Shown here piece after piece: positions 18,221 through 53,819 of a stretch of 64,000 nucleotides of DNA. Positions within the stretch are counted from its first letter, which is position 1. Every line of letters starts with the position of its first letter. The notes below the pieces were generated by a model, which made no database searches, was not told the DNA's origin, and saw only the letters and a program-made list of their open reading frames with translations. Origin of the DNA: Gemmatimonadota bacterium (GTDB lineage Bacteria > Gemmatimonadota > Gemmatimonadetes > Gemmatimonadales > Gemmatimonadaceae); the NCBI GenBank assembly GCA_021299375.1, contig JAJTGR010000003.1, positions 1-64,000 of the forward strand, in the 5' to 3' direction. A program made the translations under genes and the position numbers.

Positions 18221-18240
18221 TTCGCGCGTCGAGACGAACC

Positions 18241-18337
18241 GCCCTCACGGAGGGCACGAAGCACAGCGAGGGCATGGAGAACAACCACGGCCGTGGTCCT
18301 CCATGCCCCCACTGTTCCCGGTGCCCTCCGTGAGGGC
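18241..18337. repeat. 97-bp inverted repeat between convergent lemA and metG
   Basis: Perfect 17-bp outer arms (GCCCTCACGGAGGGCAC at 18241-18257, complement at 18321-18337) enclose a second arm pair (GGGCATGGAG / CTCCATGCCC) and a central CCACGGCCGTGG palindrome. The whole would fold into one long hairpin. It can act as a two-way terminator, but it is larger than needed for that and looks like a REP/MITE-type element. Confidence 0.8.
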
Positions 18338-18352
18338 AGTTCAGAAGGCAGT

Positions 18353-45858: not shown

Positions 45859-47262
45859 TTACGCGTGCAGCATCTTCCCCAGCGAGTCCAGCACCGCCTC
45901 CCCGATCGCCTCGGAGAGCGTGGGGTGCGCGTGCACGGCGAGGTCGATCTCCTCGACGGTGAACTCGTTCTCGCGGGCTACCACGAGTTCGTGGATCATC
46001 TCGGTGGCGTGGGCGCCGACGATGTGGGCGCCGAGGATCTCGCCGTGCTTGGCGCCGCGGATGATCTTCACGAAGCCGTCGGTCTCGCCGCTGGTGCGGG
46101 CGCGGCCGTTGGCGCTGAAGGGGAACTTGCCGACCTTGTAGTCGAGCTGCTGGTCCTTGCAGGCCTGCTCGGTGAGACCAATGCTGGCCACCTCGGGGTG
46201 GCAGTAGGTGCAGCTCGGGATGTTGCCGTAGTTCACCAGGTGCGCATGCTGCCCGCCGAGCAAGTCGGCGAGTACGTGCCCTTCGCGCGAGCCCTTGTGG
46301 GCGAGCATCTGGTTGCCGGCCACGTCGCCGATGGCGTAATAGCCGGGGACGTTGGTCTCGAACTTCGCGTTGATCTTCACGAAACCCCGCTCGCTCTTGG
46401 CGATGCCCACGGCCTCGAGGCCGATCTTCTCGACGTTGGGCGCGCGGCCGGCGGCCACGAGCACCTTCTCCACCTCGAGCGTCTCCGTCTGCCCGCCCGC
46501 TTCCACGGTCATGGTGGCGCCGGCCTTGCCGACCTTGACGTTCGAGATCTTCGCGCCGGTGCGCACGTCGATCTTGCGCTTCTTGAACGCCTTGGCCAGC
46601 TCGGCGCTGCAGTCGGCGTCTTCGATGGGCAGGATGGTGGGCGCCACCTCGAGCAGCGTGACCTTGGTGCCGAAGCTGGCGAACACGTCGGCGAACTCGC
46701 ACCCCACGGCGCCTGCCCCGACGATGGCCATGGTGGCCGGCGCCTTCTCGGCCACCAGCACGTCATCGCTGCTGAGCACGACCTGCCTGTCGAGCGCGAG
46801 GCCGACCTGCGGGAGCCCCTTCACGCGCGAGCCGGTGGCAATGACGACGGCCTTCCTGGCCTCGTGTGTCTCCCTCTTGCCGTCGGCGGTGGTGACGGTG
46901 ACCTTCTTGCCCTTCTCGAGCACGCCCTCGCCGCGGATCCAGGTGACCTTGTGCTTCTTGAAGAGGAACTCGACGCCTTTGGAGTTCTGCTGGGACACGG
47001 CACGCGACCGCTTCATGGCCGGTCCGAAGTCGAGGGTCACGCCATCGATGGTGATGCCGTGCTCGGCGGCCTTGCCGAGCTTCTGGGCGAGGCCGGCACT
47101 TTCGAGGAGCGCCTTGGCGGGGATGCACCCCCAGATCACACAGGTGCCGCCCAGCGCTTCACGCTCGACGACGGCGACCTGCAAGCCGAGTTGGGCGCAG
47201 CGAATGGCGCAGACGTAACCGGCGGGACCGCCGCCAAGCACGAGGACGTCGAACGAAGCCAT
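45859..47262 (-). CDS. lpdA: Dihydrolipoyl dehydrogenase (E3)
   Basis: A 467-residue flavoprotein from the ATG at 47262 (MASFDVLVLGGGPAGY). It reoxidises the dihydrolipoyl group of pyruvate and 2-oxoacid dehydrogenases with NAD. It has the FAD site GGGPAG at 10-15, redox cysteines 41 and 46 in GGTCVIWGCIPAK, the NAD site VGAGAVGCEFADVFASFG, and the C-terminal catalytic His446-Glu pair in HAHPTLSE. Inside the redox loop the usual LNV is replaced by VIW, a variant that keeps the spacing. It is on the same strand as pdhA, pdhB and pdhC but is separated from them by two protease-lipoprotein genes and a large inverted repeat at 47348-47581. Confidence 0.96.
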   Translation of the reverse strand: MASFDVLVLGGGPAGYVCAIRCAQLGLQVAVVEREALGGTCVIWGCIPAKALLESAGLAQKLGKAAEHGITIDGVTLDFGPAMKRSRAVSQQNSKGVEFLFKKHKVTWIRGEGVLEKGKKVTVTTADGKRETHEARKAVVIATGSRVKGLPQVGLALDRQVVLSSDDVLVAEKAPATMAIVGAGAVGCEFADVFASFGTKVTLLEVAPTILPIEDADCSAELAKAFKKRKIDVRTGAKISNVKVGKAGATMTVEAGGQTETLEVEKVLVAAGRAPNVEKIGLEAVGIAKSERGFVKINAKFETNVPGYYAIGDVAGNQMLAHKGSREGHVLADLLGGQHAHLVNYGNIPSCTYCHPEVASIGLTEQACKDQQLDYKVGKFPFSANGRARTSGETDGFVKIIRGAKHGEILGAHIVGAHATEMIHELVVARENEFTVEEIDLAVHAHPTLSEAIGEAVLDSLGKMLHA

Positions 47263-47347
47263 GGGAGTCGGGGAAAGCGGTGAGAGGTAACCCCGAAAGC
47301 TAGTCGCGGGCACTCGCTTCTGAGAACTCGATTCCCAGAGATCAGAT

Positions 47348-47581
47348 CTGAGGGTCTCGAACTCCGACGGCGATAGAGTCTTGAGACGGTGAGCCACGCA
47401 AGAATCGAGAGCACCGAGCGCTGGCGTCCGCCGGGGGGGTACCGCGTACCGGCGGCGCACTTGGCGCAGTTGGCGAGGCCCGTGGGCGCCCCTCCCCGTG
47501 CGGATGCAGCGCTCTGGTGATCGACTCGTGGGTGGCTCAGCGTCTCACCATGCTATCGTCGTCCGGGTTCGAGACGCTCAG
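47348..47581. repeat. Long imperfect inverted repeat upstream of lpdA
   Basis: Two arms of about 75 bases (47348-47423 and 47507-47581) are reverse complements at roughly four positions in five. Matched blocks include GTCTCGAAC, CGATAG, TGAGCCAC and GAGCGCTG. Weaker pairing continues inward to about 47442 and 47490. The whole would fold into one long hairpin in the spacer between the protease gene and lpdA. It may be a MITE-like element or a structured leader RNA. Confidence 0.75.
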
Positions 47582-47606: not shown

Positions 47607-50600
47607 TCAGCGCTTCACCGCGCTCCGTACCCCGTCTGAAAAGACCACCTCGACTGCCCGCCCTCCCGTCGCCACCGACGCCCCCGACCGCCGGACGAAG
47701 CCCATGACCTCGCCGGTGGCGGCATCGCGCACCATGCCCATGGCAAAGCCGCCGTTACGCCAGTTGACGCGCACTCGGCCGGTTTCCGCGACGAGTGACG
47801 CATCGGGGTCCGGGTCGGCGACGAGGCGCGGGACCCCCGGGGCCGCCGAGGGGCGCAGGGAGCGGCGAACGGTGGTCTGCACGGGCACGCGGGCGTCGCT
47901 CACGCGAATGGCGGCCAGCCCGTCCTCGAGCGCGGCGCTCCACGGGACCACCACGGCGAACTGTCGCTCTTCATGGCTTGGCGTGTGGTCGACCAGGGCG
48001 GCCTCCAGCGGCAGCTGCAGCAGGGGGCGATCGTCGGCGTCGAGCAACGTGAGCCGGTGGGTCGCGCGCACGGCCGCCGGCGTGATGGGCGCTGACACCC
48101 GGAAGGCCGGTTCGAGCTGGATGGCTCCATTCACCACCCGGCCCCACACGAGCAGGCCGGCCTGTCGTGTGGCGCCCTGCTCCCGCGCCGACGCCACGGT
48201 GCCGCTGCCACTGCGGTGCTGCAGGACCGCGCTCCACGTGTAGTCGCTGATCCAGTTGTTGTTGCAGTAGCCCATGAGATCGGTGGCGGACGGCGACACC
48301 AAGGTGTTCGTGGCGCTGTTCCACCCCCACTGACCAATCACGCCCCCCGCGTACGGGTAGCCGGGGTCGCCGCTGACGCCGCAGGGCGCGTGCCCGCGGG
48401 AGAAGTTGTGTCCCCATTCGTGGGCCGCCACGAGGTCACCACTGGGGAGGTAGTCCCACCCGATCGCGGCGCGACCGGGCAGATAGCCGTATCCGGCGAT
48501 GCCGCTGGTGTAGTTCACCTTCACCACACCGTAGTAGTGCGTGGTCGAGGGCGCCCCATCAGTCGTGCGGAGCACGTTGATCTCGTTCAGCACGGTGAGC
48601 CACTGACCGTTGCCGTCGTTGGCTTGCAGCTCGGTGGCGCTCGACGTGAACGGCGCCCGCACGTCGGACACCACGTCGCGGAGCGGGAACAGTCGGCGGG
48701 TGCTGGTGAGGAACTGCTCGCGGTTTCCGCTCGACACGTTGCCGGTCTGGGCGCCGGTGATCACGGGAACGAACCGCACCGTGAACGCGGGCACACTGCT
48801 CACTGCGATGGCCTGCGGGGTGCCGGTGGCGGGCCAGCTGTTGTCGGCGCGGTCGGCGTCCGGCACCGCCTGCGTCGGATCGAGGTCGACCAGCACGCGC
48901 AGCGCGGGCCGAACGGTCGCGCCCGGAACACTCAGGTTCCACGTGGAGCCGAGCGTGCCCTCGGCGACTGCCGTCCGCACGCTCGCTTCCGGTGCGGTCA
49001 GCACGGTGGTCTGCAGCAGGGTCGTGCCGTCGTAGAGGCGGACGCGTACCTCGGGGCGCGCACTGTTGGCCGCGCTGGCGACCACGAACACGCGCAGCAG
49101 GGCGTCCCGGTTGGCTACCAGCGGCACCGAGCCGTCGAGCTTCTGGATGGCCTGGGTGATGTAGACATGCGCGATGCGGTAGTTCACGCCCGCGCCACCG
49201 CCACCGCCACCGCCTCCTCCGTTCGAGGCGTAGGTGAACGACGTCGAGGCGGTGCTGTTCGCGCTGATCGTGACCGACGCCGAGGCGGGCGTGGCCGTGT
49301 AGGTGGTTCCGCCGCTGCTCACCGTTGCCGGCGTCACCGTCCAGGTGCCGACGGCGAGACCACTCACGGTGCCGGTGCCGGTTGCCGTGCGGGTGCTGCT
49401 GCCGCTGGTGAGCGTGAAGGTGGGGACTGCCCCACCGGGGAGCCCCGATGCCGCGATGTTGACGGCGCCGGTGGGCGCGGCGTACGAGACGGTGGCGCCG
49501 GCCGCCACCGTCGACGCGATCACGGTGACCGTCTGTGTGGCGGGCGTCGGCACGTGAGTGGTGCCCGACGCCGTGACCGCCGTTGCCGAAACGGTATAGC
49601 TGCCGGGCACGAGCTTGGTGAACGTCACGGTGCCGGTGGCCGTCCGGGCAAAGCCGTCCGGGCCGGTGACATTCACGGCGCCGGCCACGCCGTTGGGCAG
49701 TCCAGTGACCACGAGCGCGAGCGACCCAGTGGTGATGGTGTACTCCACGGCGAAGCGCAGCGTGTCGCCGGCGGTCACGCTGGTATCGTGCGAGGCGGGT
49801 GCAGGCTGGTAGCTGGCCGTGCCCGTGGTGACCATCGAGGCCGTGTAGCGCCAGCGGCCTGGCCGCGCGGGAAGTACGCGCTGCGAGGTGGTGATGGCGT
49901 AGCTCTCGCCGGATGGGTCGACCATGGCGATGGCGGCATTTGCGCTGCCGGGCAGGCCACTGACCAGCACATCGACGACGGTCGGGACGAGCACGTAGGT
50001 CATGGCAACCGTCGCCGGCGTGGCACTCGCGGTGACGTCGACTGTGCGAGTGCCGGTGGCCAGGCCAAACGCCTCGGTTGCCGACCGCACGGTGCGCGCC
50101 GTGACCGTGTAGCGGCCTGGCAGTAGGCCAGCGAGGGTCGCGGTGGAGGTCACCGTCCGCGTGAAGGCGCCGGGGCCGCTCACCACGACCTCGCCGGCGA
50201 GGCCGGCGGGCAGCCCCAGCACCGAGACGGCGAGGCTCCCCGAGGCCAGCTGGTAGGTGGCGGCGGCGCTCACGGTCGTGCCCACTGTCACCGCGATGGT
50301 CTGCGATGCCGGGGTGGCCGCGTAGCGGTCGGGGCCTGCGGTCACGCTGGCCGCACTGAGGGTGTAGCTCCCCGCGGGGAGCGAGTCGAGCGTGGCGCTG
50401 CTCGCGAGTGTCCGGGTGAGGCCGGCTCCCGCGAGCGTGAGTGCCGCCGCGGCGCCGTCGGGTAGCCCGTTCACGGTCACCGCGAGACGGCCGACCTGGG
50501 CTACATAGACCACTGGCGCCGGCGCGGCCACGAGGGACGCGATCACGTCGACGGTGATGGTGTCCGTGGCCGGGCGATAAGTGATCCCGCCCGTGGCAAC

Positions 50601-51443
50601 GGGCGTGCTGATCACGCGATACGCCCCCGGCGTGAGGCCGGTGAGGGTGGTGGTCGCTGTCAGGGTGCGGGAGAAGTCCCCAGGCCCCACCACCTGCACG
50701 GCGGCCGCGAGCGAGGCAGGCAACCCACCGACGGCCACCGCGAGGGCGCCGGTGGCGATGGTGTAGCGCACGGCGACCCGCGCGGTGTCGCCGAAGCTCA
50801 CGACCGTGTCGAAGGCGGCGGGGGTCGGTGTGAAGCGGGCGCCTTCCGCGGAGACCTCGGCGGCGGTCACGCGCCAGACATCGGGCGTGTTGCTGCCGCT
50901 CGGCAGCTGCGGGGCCAGCACCACGGTGGCCGGCGCGACCGCTGCCGGCGAGCCATTCGGCGGTGTGACGGTGAACGTCGGGGTGGCCGTGGCCGGCAGG
51001 CCTGTTGCCGACACCGCCAGCGCCGACGGCACGGCGCGATACACCGCGGTGACGGTCGATAGTGGACCACCGGCGGGGACATCGACCTCCAACGAGGCCG
51101 GGGCGCCGGCAAAGGTGCCGGCCGCACCGCGCACCGGGCGAATGGCCACGGCGTAGCGCCCCGCTGGAATGTCGGTCCACACCACGGAGCCGGTGGTCGT
51201 CCGGGAGAAGGTCGCCCCCGGCAAGGGTCCGGTGACCTGCAGCTGCGGGCTCAGGCCCTCGGGCAACCCACTGCTCGCCAGACTCAATATGCCGGGAGCG
51301 ACCGGGGCAGGGGCGATGGGCGGCACCTTCGGCGGGGCGGTCGGGCCCGAGGACGACGAGTCGCCACCCGCACACCCCGCCAACAAGGCGACGCCGGCGA
51401 GCAGGGACAGGCGAACACGTGAGGACGCGAAGACAGGGAGCAA
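47607..51443 (-). CDS. Repeat-rich metzincin protease lipoprotein (8 repeats)
   Basis: A 1278-residue lipoprotein (lipobox LLAGC). Residues about 50-740 are eight tandem repeats of about 85 residues, each of the form SLAVSVLGLPAGLAG, then PGRYTVTA and a closing strand VAMTYVL. A glycine run (about residue 745) leads to a protease domain. HEWGHNFSRGH at about 1008-1018 is the HExxHxxGxxH-type metzincin zinc site, with Arg in the usual Gly position, and DLMGYC downstream is the Met-turn. A final 180 residues form a beta-rich domain. A paralogue with three repeats lies directly upstream. Probably a surface endopeptidase on a long stalk; its substrate is unknown. Confidence 0.88.
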   Translation of the reverse strand: MLPVFASSRVRLSLLAGVALLAGCAGGDSSSSGPTAPPKVPPIAPAPVAPGILSLASSGLPEGLSPQLQVTGPLPGATFSRTTTGSVVWTDIPAGRYAVAIRPVRGAAGTFAGAPASLEVDVPAGGPLSTVTAVYRAVPSALAVSATGLPATATPTFTVTPPNGSPAAVAPATVVLAPQLPSGSNTPDVWRVTAAEVSAEGARFTPTPAAFDTVVSFGDTARVAVRYTIATGALAVAVGGLPASLAAAVQVVGPGDFSRTLTATTTLTGLTPGAYRVISTPVATGGITYRPATDTITVDVIASLVAAPAPVVYVAQVGRLAVTVNGLPDGAAAALTLAGAGLTRTLASSATLDSLPAGSYTLSAASVTAGPDRYAATPASQTIAVTVGTTVSAAATYQLASGSLAVSVLGLPAGLAGEVVVSGPGAFTRTVTSTATLAGLLPGRYTVTARTVRSATEAFGLATGTRTVDVTASATPATVAMTYVLVPTVVDVLVSGLPGSANAAIAMVDPSGESYAITTSQRVLPARPGRWRYTASMVTTGTASYQPAPASHDTSVTAGDTLRFAVEYTITTGSLALVVTGLPNGVAGAVNVTGPDGFARTATGTVTFTKLVPGSYTVSATAVTASGTTHVPTPATQTVTVIASTVAAGATVSYAAPTGAVNIAASGLPGGAVPTFTLTSGSSTRTATGTGTVSGLAVGTWTVTPATVSSGGTTYTATPASASVTISANSTASTSFTYASNGGGGGGGGGAGVNYRIAHVYITQAIQKLDGSVPLVANRDALLRVFVVASAANSARPEVRVRLYDGTTLLQTTVLTAPEASVRTAVAEGTLGSTWNLSVPGATVRPALRVLVDLDPTQAVPDADRADNSWPATGTPQAIAVSSVPAFTVRFVPVITGAQTGNVSSGNREQFLTSTRRLFPLRDVVSDVRAPFTSSATELQANDGNGQWLTVLNEINVLRTTDGAPSTTHYYGVVKVNYTSGIAGYGYLPGRAAIGWDYLPSGDLVAAHEWGHNFSRGHAPCGVSGDPGYPYAGGVIGQWGWNSATNTLVSPSATDLMGYCNNNWISDYTWSAVLQHRSGSGTVASAREQGATRQAGLLVWGRVVNGAIQLEPAFRVSAPITPAAVRATHRLTLLDADDRPLLQLPLEAALVDHTPSHEERQFAVVVPWSAALEDGLAAIRVSDARVPVQTTVRRSLRPSAAPGVPRLVADPDPDASLVAETGRVRVNWRNGGFAMGMVRDAATGEVMGFVRRSGASVATGGRAVEVVFSDGVRSAVKR

Positions 51444-51533: not shown

Positions 51534-53819
51534 TCACCGTGGCGGGCGTTGACGTAGGCGGTACGGGCGAGTGGCGGCGACCAGTGGTGTCCGCACGTCG
51601 CGAACGCGGACGTGCGCCAGCCGCTGGGCCACGTCCCCGGCGAACGGGAGCACCACCGCGAAGATCTGGTCACGACGCGGGCCATGATCGACCACCTCGG
51701 CCTCGATTGGCCACGAGATGAGCGGCTGCAGGTCGGCGTCAAGCAGGTCGACGACATGGGTGGGGGCGCCGGCCGGTGGCGTGATGGGCGCGTGCAGGTC
51801 GGTGGCCGGTTCGAGCACCAGCGCGCCACGCACGACGCGCCCCCAGACGAGCAGCCCATCGGCCTCACCCGGAGAGGCCACAAGCCGAGGCGCGGACAGC
51901 GCGGCGGCTTGCCGGAACGCGAGGACGCGGGTGTAGCTGTACTCGGAGACCCACGCCGGCGTGCAGTAGCCCATGATGTCGGCCGTCGTCGGTCCGAACA
52001 CGGTGGACGTGCGCGCGTCCCACCCGATGGTGCCCGTGAGCCCCCCGACGCTGGGGAATTGGGGGTCCGCGTTCGGGGGGTCGCCGCACGGTGCGTGCAG
52101 GCGGCCGAAGTTGTGCCCCCATTCATGCGCCGCCACGACGTCCGCATCGGCACGGTCCCAGCCGACGGCGGTCGGACTTCCGACGAGTCCCAGTCCGAAC
52201 GTGCCGCTGTCGTACGGGACCGGGACCACACCGTAGTAGTGCGTGGTGGGGGGCGCCCCGTCGAGCAGCCGGAGCGCCCGGAGCTCACTCAGCACGGTGG
52301 TCCAGGCGCCGTTGGCATCGGTGGGGTGCAGCACCGGTGCCGCCGACACGAGGGGTGTGCGTACGTCGCTGGTGACCTGCGCCAGCGGCCAGAGCGTACG
52401 CGCCGTATGCAGGAACCGCGTCTGTGTGCGTGCCGAGATGTCGCCCGTCGCCGTGCCAATCGTCACCGGCACGAAGCGCACGGTGAAGGGCGGCACGACC
52501 GTGGCATTCAAGGCGCGGGGCGTGGCACCGGCGGGCCACACGTTGTCGCTGCGCTGCGTCTCGCCCAGGGTGCTGTCGGGGTCGACATCCACGACCAGGC
52601 GCAACGACGAACGCACGAGGTCGCCGGCGAGTCTGATCGCGTACGTGGAGGCGAGGTCGCTTTCGAGCGGTTCGAGCGGCACGCTCCCCACCGGAGGCGT
52701 CAGCACCAGCGCGCCGAGCACGGTGGTGCCTTCGAACAGGCGTACGCGCGCGGGGACCGCGCGCACACCGGCGCGATCGGCGCGCACGTAGGCGCGCAAC
52801 AGGGCCTCTCGTCCCGCCACGAGCGGGATGCTGTTGTCGGCCCGCTGCACCGCCTGGGTGATCGTCACGCGATCGATGGTCAGGTTGGGGGCCGATGGGT
52901 TGGACGCATACGACACCGTGACGGTATCCGCGGTGGCCGTGGTCACCACGCGCGGTACGCTGCGGCTGGCTGGTGACCAGCTTGGCCCGGACCCGTCGGG
53001 GAGCGCGCTGACGGCCAGCGGCGTGATCTGGTAGCTGCCGACGGGCAACGAGGCGACCTCACCGCCGACGATGAACCGGTCGACCTGCAGCGGACCCTGT
53101 ACGCGCGCGCGCGGTCGCACCCCTGCGGGCAGCCCCGTCGCGCCAAGCACCAGGCGGCCGGTCACGTTCTCATAGGGTACGAGGAGGGTGGACGGGACGG
53201 TGGAGGCGTTGATGCGGACGTCCGGCGCCGCTGGACTGCGCCAGGCGGTGCCGCCGGCATTCACCGAATCGACACGTACCGTATAGCTGCCAGGTGGCAG
53301 ATCACCGAACACCACGGAACCGCTGGCCACGCGCGTCAGGCCACCCGGGCCGCTGATGCGCACCGCGCCGACAACGCCGCCAGGCAGGCCGGTCACCGTC
53401 ACGGCGAGCGCCCCGGTGGCGAGTTCGTATCCGATGGCCAGGCGCGACGTATCACCGGTGGGCACGCCCACGTCGGCGCTCGACGGCATGCCGCTCCACG
53501 TGAAGCCGCTCACGCGCACGTCGCCGGCGCGGGCCAGGTATCGGCCGGGCATGAGATTGGACAGCACGTCACTGCCCGTCAGCGTACGCGCGAATCCGTT
53601 CGGCCCCGTGACGTGGACATCGGCGTCCGCCCCGGCCGGCAACCCGGTAACCTGCACGACCAGGGTGCCACGCGGCGGATCGGCTGGCGTGGGCGTGGGA
53701 TGCTCGCAGGCGGCGGCCGGGAGCAGCAGCAGCACGGACCCGCTCCAGCGCACGAACGCCCCGACTGCGCGGTGCCACGCGGCAGGTCGGGGCGTCGTGA
53801 GTGGCGGCATGCGCGGCAT
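51534..53819 (-). CDS. Repeat-rich metzincin protease lipoprotein (3 repeats)
   Basis: A 761-residue paralogue of the neighbouring 1278-residue protein. The signal peptide ends at PAAAC. Only three of the 85-residue GLP repeats are present (about 45-310, for example GALAVTVTGLPGGVVGAV). Then comes the same protease domain, beginning near LTIDRVTITQAVQRADNSIP. The zinc site is HEWGHNFGRLH at about 565-575, followed by PCG, and the Met-turn is DIMGYC. It lacks most of the C-terminal extension of its neighbour. It lies 90 bases upstream of the longer gene and 68 bases downstream of pdhC on the same strand, so read-through from the pyruvate dehydrogenase operon is possible. Confidence 0.88.
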   Translation of the reverse strand: MPRMPPLTTPRPAAWHRAVGAFVRWSGSVLLLLPAAACEHPTPTPADPPRGTLVVQVTGLPAGADADVHVTGPNGFARTLTGSDVLSNLMPGRYLARAGDVRVSGFTWSGMPSSADVGVPTGDTSRLAIGYELATGALAVTVTGLPGGVVGAVRISGPGGLTRVASGSVVFGDLPPGSYTVRVDSVNAGGTAWRSPAAPDVRINASTVPSTLLVPYENVTGRLVLGATGLPAGVRPRARVQGPLQVDRFIVGGEVASLPVGSYQITPLAVSALPDGSGPSWSPASRSVPRVVTTATADTVTVSYASNPSAPNLTIDRVTITQAVQRADNSIPLVAGREALLRAYVRADRAGVRAVPARVRLFEGTTVLGALVLTPPVGSVPLEPLESDLASTYAIRLAGDLVRSSLRLVVDVDPDSTLGETQRSDNVWPAGATPRALNATVVPPFTVRFVPVTIGTATGDISARTQTRFLHTARTLWPLAQVTSDVRTPLVSAAPVLHPTDANGAWTTVLSELRALRLLDGAPPTTHYYGVVPVPYDSGTFGLGLVGSPTAVGWDRADADVVAAHEWGHNFGRLHAPCGDPPNADPQFPSVGGLTGTIGWDARTSTVFGPTTADIMGYCTPAWVSEYSYTRVLAFRQAAALSAPRLVASPGEADGLLVWGRVVRGALVLEPATDLHAPITPPAGAPTHVVDLLDADLQPLISWPIEAEVVDHGPRRDQIFAVVLPFAGDVAQRLAHVRVRDVRTPLVAATRPYRLRQRPPR

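Follow-up and report, generated by a model that had tools for sequence, protein, structure and literature searches.

Bacterial gene-end signals are usually recognised by a short stem followed by a T-tract, and the intrinsic (Rho-independent) bidirectional terminators place a hairpin of this kind right past the stop codon, in convergent and codirectional gaps alike. Two further groups of described elements resemble the hairpins that are the subject of this work. The REP/BIME sequences and the RAYT-associated REPINs are also dispersed, intergenic palindromes of gene 3' ends which form species-restricted families and serve as targets for IS elements, and MITEs, ERIC/RU-1 and similar non-autonomous elements are also dispersed, intergenic, palindromic over nearly their whole length, and 100-250 bp long. 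Furthermore, an enrichment of inverted repeats downstream of stop codons is general in bacteria (PMC13155455). The hairpins examined here nevertheless differ from each of these. Compared with intrinsic terminators, their stems are 3-10 times longer and imperfect, are followed by no T-tract, and belong to repeated sequence families. REP and REPIN units measure 20-40 bp and often exceed 100 copies, whereas ours are single hairpins of 100-400 bp (the family first met has arms of about 73 nt and 13 copies) which obey a purine-first rule, the purine-rich arm leading; a Y1 transposase (PF01797) is absent from four of the genomes. In contrast to MITEs, they have no matching transposase-carrying ends, and the family among them that is sharp-ended has no target-site duplication. 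We found no description of this hairpin class in the open literature searched, where some of the repeat strings themselves were also looked for. Dispersed palindromes and gene-end hairpins are each of known kinds, but genome-specific families of hairpins that are at once long, purine-first and free of a T-tract are apparently undescribed there. With no T-tract, and with a sequence that varies between species under a nearly invariant purine/pyrimidine polarity, the class would escape standard terminator finders.

The starting point was a long imperfect inverted repeat between lpdA and the gene upstream of it in the window, by which we mean the whole 64,000-nucleotide stretch of Gemmatimonadota DNA that was analysed (Table 1). 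The first-pass annotation had described arms of about 75 bases with weaker pairing further inward, and that description holds: the arm unit is about 73 nt, the outer arms (47348-47408 and 47521-47581) are 80% complementary without gaps, all 234 bp align with their own reverse complement at 72.5% identity, and the inner pairing, too, is real on the + strand. It had also advised that the RNA be folded. The + strand gave -165.8 kcal/mol against -111.0 in shuffles (z -11.3). For the transcribed - strand the value was -146.7 (z -9.4), so that the hairpin pairs worse as transcribed; both values lie far below the shuffles, none of 200 of which matched the native fold. The window copy has no T-run after its stem and its purine polarity is weak (0.55 purine). 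Rfam covariance models found no match to it up to E = 1.

Table 1. Features of the lpdA site, in window positions.
Feature	Position	Strand	Remarks
lpdA, dihydrolipoyl dehydrogenase (Pyr_redox_2, Pyr_redox_dim); downstream gene	45859..47262	-	
Promoter-like CTAGCTT	47297..47303	-	41 nt before the lpdA start
Long imperfect hairpin (the element)	47348..47581	.	outermost pairing may reach slightly further on both sides
Left arm: family unit GAACTCCGACGGCGATAGAG..CGTCCGC, inner subtype A	47359..47431	+	from arm alignment and copies
Central part, G+C-rich: weaker stem and loop, varying between copies	47432..47499	.	
Right arm: the left arm's family unit on the other strand, inner subtype B (GATCACCAGAGCGCTG)	47500..47570	-	from arm alignment
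Upstream gene, 1278-aa ORF with a zinc-protease-like motif, HEWGHNFSRGH	47607..51443	-	no Pfam match over cut-off

The hairpin is not alone in its genome (G000; 4.48 Mb in 116 contigs), which a search with the lpdA protein assigns to Gemmatimonadaceae. At least 13 dispersed places there carry the element, 60-85% alike, and every copy is a long hairpin of 145-250 nt; the arm motif TTGAGACGGTGAGCCAC, allowing up to 2 mismatches, falls in paired hairpins, on opposite strands, in 19 of its 20 matches. Five copies (that in the window, both on contig C109, and those on C113 and C51) pair an A arm with a B arm, either of which may come first along the contig, and because this asymmetry is common to five loci, whole hairpins must have been copied rather than formed anew at each site. 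The window hairpin is thus a member of a dispersed intergenic hairpin family descended from whole elements. Outside its own genome, a BLAST search with the arm consensus found it in none of 40 relatives (24 of the same genus), and an exact degenerate pattern matched nothing in 84,980 species, each represented by one genome, or in viral contigs, searches from which the record of the source genome or of a very near one may have been left out; on the strength of the relatives and the species searched, the sequence is restricted to the species, or nearly so. A second hairpin family of about five members exists in the same genome, one of them on the contig of the window. Separately, convergent gaps are filled at window positions 18236-18342 and at G000:C42:64054-64150 by two long hairpins that are purine-first and have sequences of their own (GAACCGCCCTCACGGAGGGCACGAAG.. 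and GAACCCCAAGGCGTCAGGG..).

Long self-complementary stretches of at least 90 bp were then sought in four Gemmatimonas genomes (1.85 Mb of their sequence), with genes called by a home-made codon-usage caller and with 100 kb of E. coli as a control, and 41 long hairpins emerged: 17 in G000, 10 in G020, 9 in G004 and 5 in G001. The same survey returned no mirror repeats, a composition control by which chance hairpins arising from base composition can be rejected; 200 kb of a further genome, G031, held no long hairpins. The family met at lpdA belongs to this wider class, whose sequence families differ from genome to genome, as illustrated by the ACAGCGGGGGGAACACAGA.. family, which has 42 exact ends in G020, one in G011, and none in 24 other genomes. 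Placement follows the ends of genes. Convergent gaps contained 22 of the hairpins and codirectional gaps 18, one sat at a contig edge, and neither divergent gaps nor coding sequence had any; most lie 0-60 nt past a stop codon, and 17 of the 18 codirectional ones are nearer to the upstream stop. Background gaps of at least 60 bp number 437 codirectional, 163 divergent and 104 convergent, against which an absence from divergent gaps in 40 of 40 cases has a hand-calculated probability of about 3e-5. At a lower threshold a few hairpins do appear in divergent gaps, and two of them, in Gemmatimonas, measure 90 bp or more; as promoter regions select against any insertion, the divergent-gap absence by itself is no proof of a 3'-end function. 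Among the 22 convergent hairpins are 12 with no more than 25 nt between either end and the adjacent stop codon, which leaves little room for another terminator.

The long hairpins share a polarity of composition as well as a position. All 45 that were measured (the 41 of the survey and four further family copies) carry more purines in their 5' half, with a mean of 0.62 against 0.38. As a palindrome reads identically from both strands, the purine-first rule belongs to the hairpin and not to one strand. In a gap-by-gap scan, purine-first hairpins outnumbered the others by 49:1 where the length was 90 bp or more and by 58:39 where it was below 60 bp; the rule is not shown by the short hairpins of the same genomes. 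Over the 10 nt that follow the stem, short hairpins in codirectional gaps have 3.3 T, compared with 1.6-1.8 for the long ones. Purine content is 0.50 in genes and 0.515/0.496 in convergent gaps free of hairpins, by which a mere by-product of purine-loaded genes or 3' UTRs is rejected. Since many copies are related, we also grouped 105 Gemmatimonadota hairpins of at least 60 bp into 51 sequence clusters, and 43 of these were purine-first against 7 that were not (p 2e-7). In 80 diverse lpdA neighbourhoods the hairpins of at least 60 bp are purine-first by 23:3, and in G027, from another family of the order, all 10 are, their arms being composed of degenerate units 9-10 nt long, for example GGGGCAAGGT. 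One genome, G029, breaks the rule (2:3).

Taken together, the position at gene ends, the double-sidedness and the leading purine arm suggest that the long hairpins mark the ends of transcripts, and termination is what we infer for them. Our main reading, to which we assign a probability of roughly 0.5, is that they are sequence-fluid, bidirectional 3'-end hairpins, acting in termination or as transcript boundaries, that would spread as whole elements and be kept symmetrical by copying from arm to arm. A hybrid of pyrimidine RNA with purine DNA is the weakest kind, while the RNA duplex of purine with pyrimidine strands is strong. A polymerase leaving the upstream gene would transcribe the purine arm and then the pyrimidine arm, at which point the hairpin may zip up behind the enzyme and draw its 3' arm out of the hybrid, such that the polymerase would be stopped or released, or at the least the 3' end of the mRNA would be fixed and protected. 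With a weak hybrid and a strong RNA stem, folding could pull the RNA free of the polymerase with no need for a T-tract, and because the element is palindromic it would work from both sides, so one copy could serve two converging genes. At the site in the window, the hairpin would keep the protease-like gene's transcript apart from the lpdA promoter. A broader form of this proposal, which we regard as possible rather than probable, is that U-tract-free bidirectional gene-end hairpins, defined not by sequence but by strand chemistry with the purine arm ahead of the pyrimidine arm, occur throughout the phylum, are renewed by genome-specific repeat families, and stay symmetrical via template switching. 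If true, they would permit a direct test of whether the strength of the RNA:DNA hybrid, as against that of the RNA:RNA stem, is alone enough to stop the polymerase.

The first-pass annotation had considered a MITE, and a related explanation must be weighed: that these are purely selfish miniature elements, MITE- or REP-like, which are moved by an unknown recombinase, survive only outside promoters and genes, bring the host no benefit, and owe their polarity to the common descent of all families. Dispersed copies of whole elements with a common internal asymmetry are what such elements would leave, and to that extent the suggestion was sound; genome-restricted families are likewise in keeping with it, as is the G020 family, whose ends (CAGCGGGGGGAACAC) are sharp and conserved, with 42 exact matches. 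Y1/RAYT transposases (PF01797) are absent from G000, G020, G004 and G001, while control genomes were positive, and a REP/RAYT identity is rejected on that ground. No target-site duplication was found at 21 copies of the sharp-ended G020 family, 19 of which have a complementary terminal pair (one site is listed twice in this set); the ends of the G000 family are too worn for such a judgement. Two 1.4-kb stretches in G020 (L221:15004-16418 and L328:767-2179) were considered as an autonomous partner transposon, a candidate rejected upon finding that they are IS3-like elements, unrelated to each other, which lie in the loops of two family hairpins and do not use the hairpin ends as their own termini. 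A third copy, on G000 contig C31 (L026:1525-3215), is split within its 3' arm by an IS110-family element (Transposase_20, DEDD_Tnp_IS110), and the arm's outer tip, missing on the near side, lies beyond it. With three copies split in this way, the long hairpins are landing places for IS elements, as is described for REP elements (PMC1525189). Furthermore, the polarity extends over 43 of 50 clusters without detectable sequence relation, and insertion alone does not explain how convergent gaps come to be filled from stop to stop. We consider a purely selfish origin unlikely.

A second explanation retains a role at the 3' end and dispenses with termination, the hairpin acting to stabilise or process mRNA by blocking exonucleases, as REP does between codirectional genes of E. 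coli. Long and stable stems just past stop codons, with no T-tract, would suit this function. It predicts neither the purine-first polarity nor the preference for convergent gaps (22 of 40 hairpins against 104 of 704 gaps), however, and is in our estimation improbable.

The gene-end reading further supposes that the arms are kept complementary, and here the copies of the family are informative. Among 26 arms alignable as one family, identity is 0.75 within a copy and 0.70 between copies, a difference that none of 20,000 random re-pairings reached; two families have arms more alike within copies than between them (0/20000 in each). Counting base pairs on an alignment of 12 copies, we find 40 two-sided changes against 23.7 after shuffling, a level that none of 500 shuffles attained. 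The covariation score was 0.160, compared with 0.114 in shuffles; the number of pairs with two-sided changes is less extreme, being reached by 22 of the 500. Covariation, which the first-pass annotation had proposed to look for in relatives, is therefore present across copies within the genome, and as further copies exist too, neither of these two grounds on which it would have let the element go applies. It bears as well on the suggestion of a decayed pair, namely that the hairpin is an old chance pair of inverted 73-nt repeat insertions with no role and no upkeep. That arms are nearly as alike between copies as within them (0.70 v 0.75) would fit, but single arms are almost absent, close motif matches lying in paired hairpins in the proportion given above, and covariation exceeds every shuffle, which leaves a chance pair very improbable.

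How complementarity is maintained is a separate matter. Slow compensation at the RNA level should leave more G.U pairs, and on the transcribed strand of codirectional hairpins the excess of G.U over A.C was not significant (81:66, p 0.25). Selection on the RNA, insofar as a G.U excess would reveal it, is thereby rejected, and repair of the arms at the DNA level fits better. Template switching is known to make and repair hairpins (PMC8794818), and there, too, it accounts for matching arm changes of several bases without G.U intermediates; that work concerns RNA genes, while for the dispersed gene-end hairpins discussed here the process is proposed. Copies arise through duplication of whole elements, as the inherited internal asymmetry shows. 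The arms would afterwards stay complementary in spite of sequence drift, and the likeliest means is template switching from one arm to the other at DNA replication, together with selection for pairing. The hairpins would offer a natural test bed for arm-to-arm template switching, in that a single genome allows comparison among dozens of them that have independent histories.

Last, the first-pass annotation had placed the inverted repeat in the leader of lpdA and entertained a structured regulatory RNA. Between the upstream gene's stop codon and the hairpin there are 25 nt, and from the hairpin to the lpdA start there are 85 nt, a stretch that contains the promoter-like motif. A [CG]TAnnTT sequence precedes the lpdA start in 13 of 14 orthologs, mostly at 40-59 nt, and since the hairpin lies upstream of this conserved motif it is likely outside the lpdA transcript, and so likely upstream of the lpdA promoter as judged from the motif. 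Congeners that keep the same gene pair have a short spacer or other, smaller hairpins of unrelated sequence (G001, G004), and as several with a short spacer have no long hairpin at lpdA, the element is dispensable there. A riboswitch-like leader RNA, which the location in the spacer before lpdA and the covariation across copies might favour, is hardly credible, and is rejected, given this position, the want of conservation at lpdA in congeners, the same element at 12 unrelated places, the lack of an Rfam match and the weaker fold on the transcribed strand.

Other features of the same neighbourhood deserve mention. The upstream gene and its neighbour at 51534-53819 are secreted-looking paralogs with the zinc-protease motifs HEWGHNFSRGH and HEWGHNFGRLH, respectively; both have repeated domains and neither matches a Pfam family over the cut-off. 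At three loci from other families of the order (L098, L102 and L103), the spacer before lpdA carries hairpins in which short, degenerate units repeat in tandem, (GCGGATT)n, (GTCGGAC)n and (GGGAGCA)n, and in two congeners (G005 and G015, loci L090 and L091) a long degenerate tandem repeat with units of about 200 bp lies directly upstream of lpdA.
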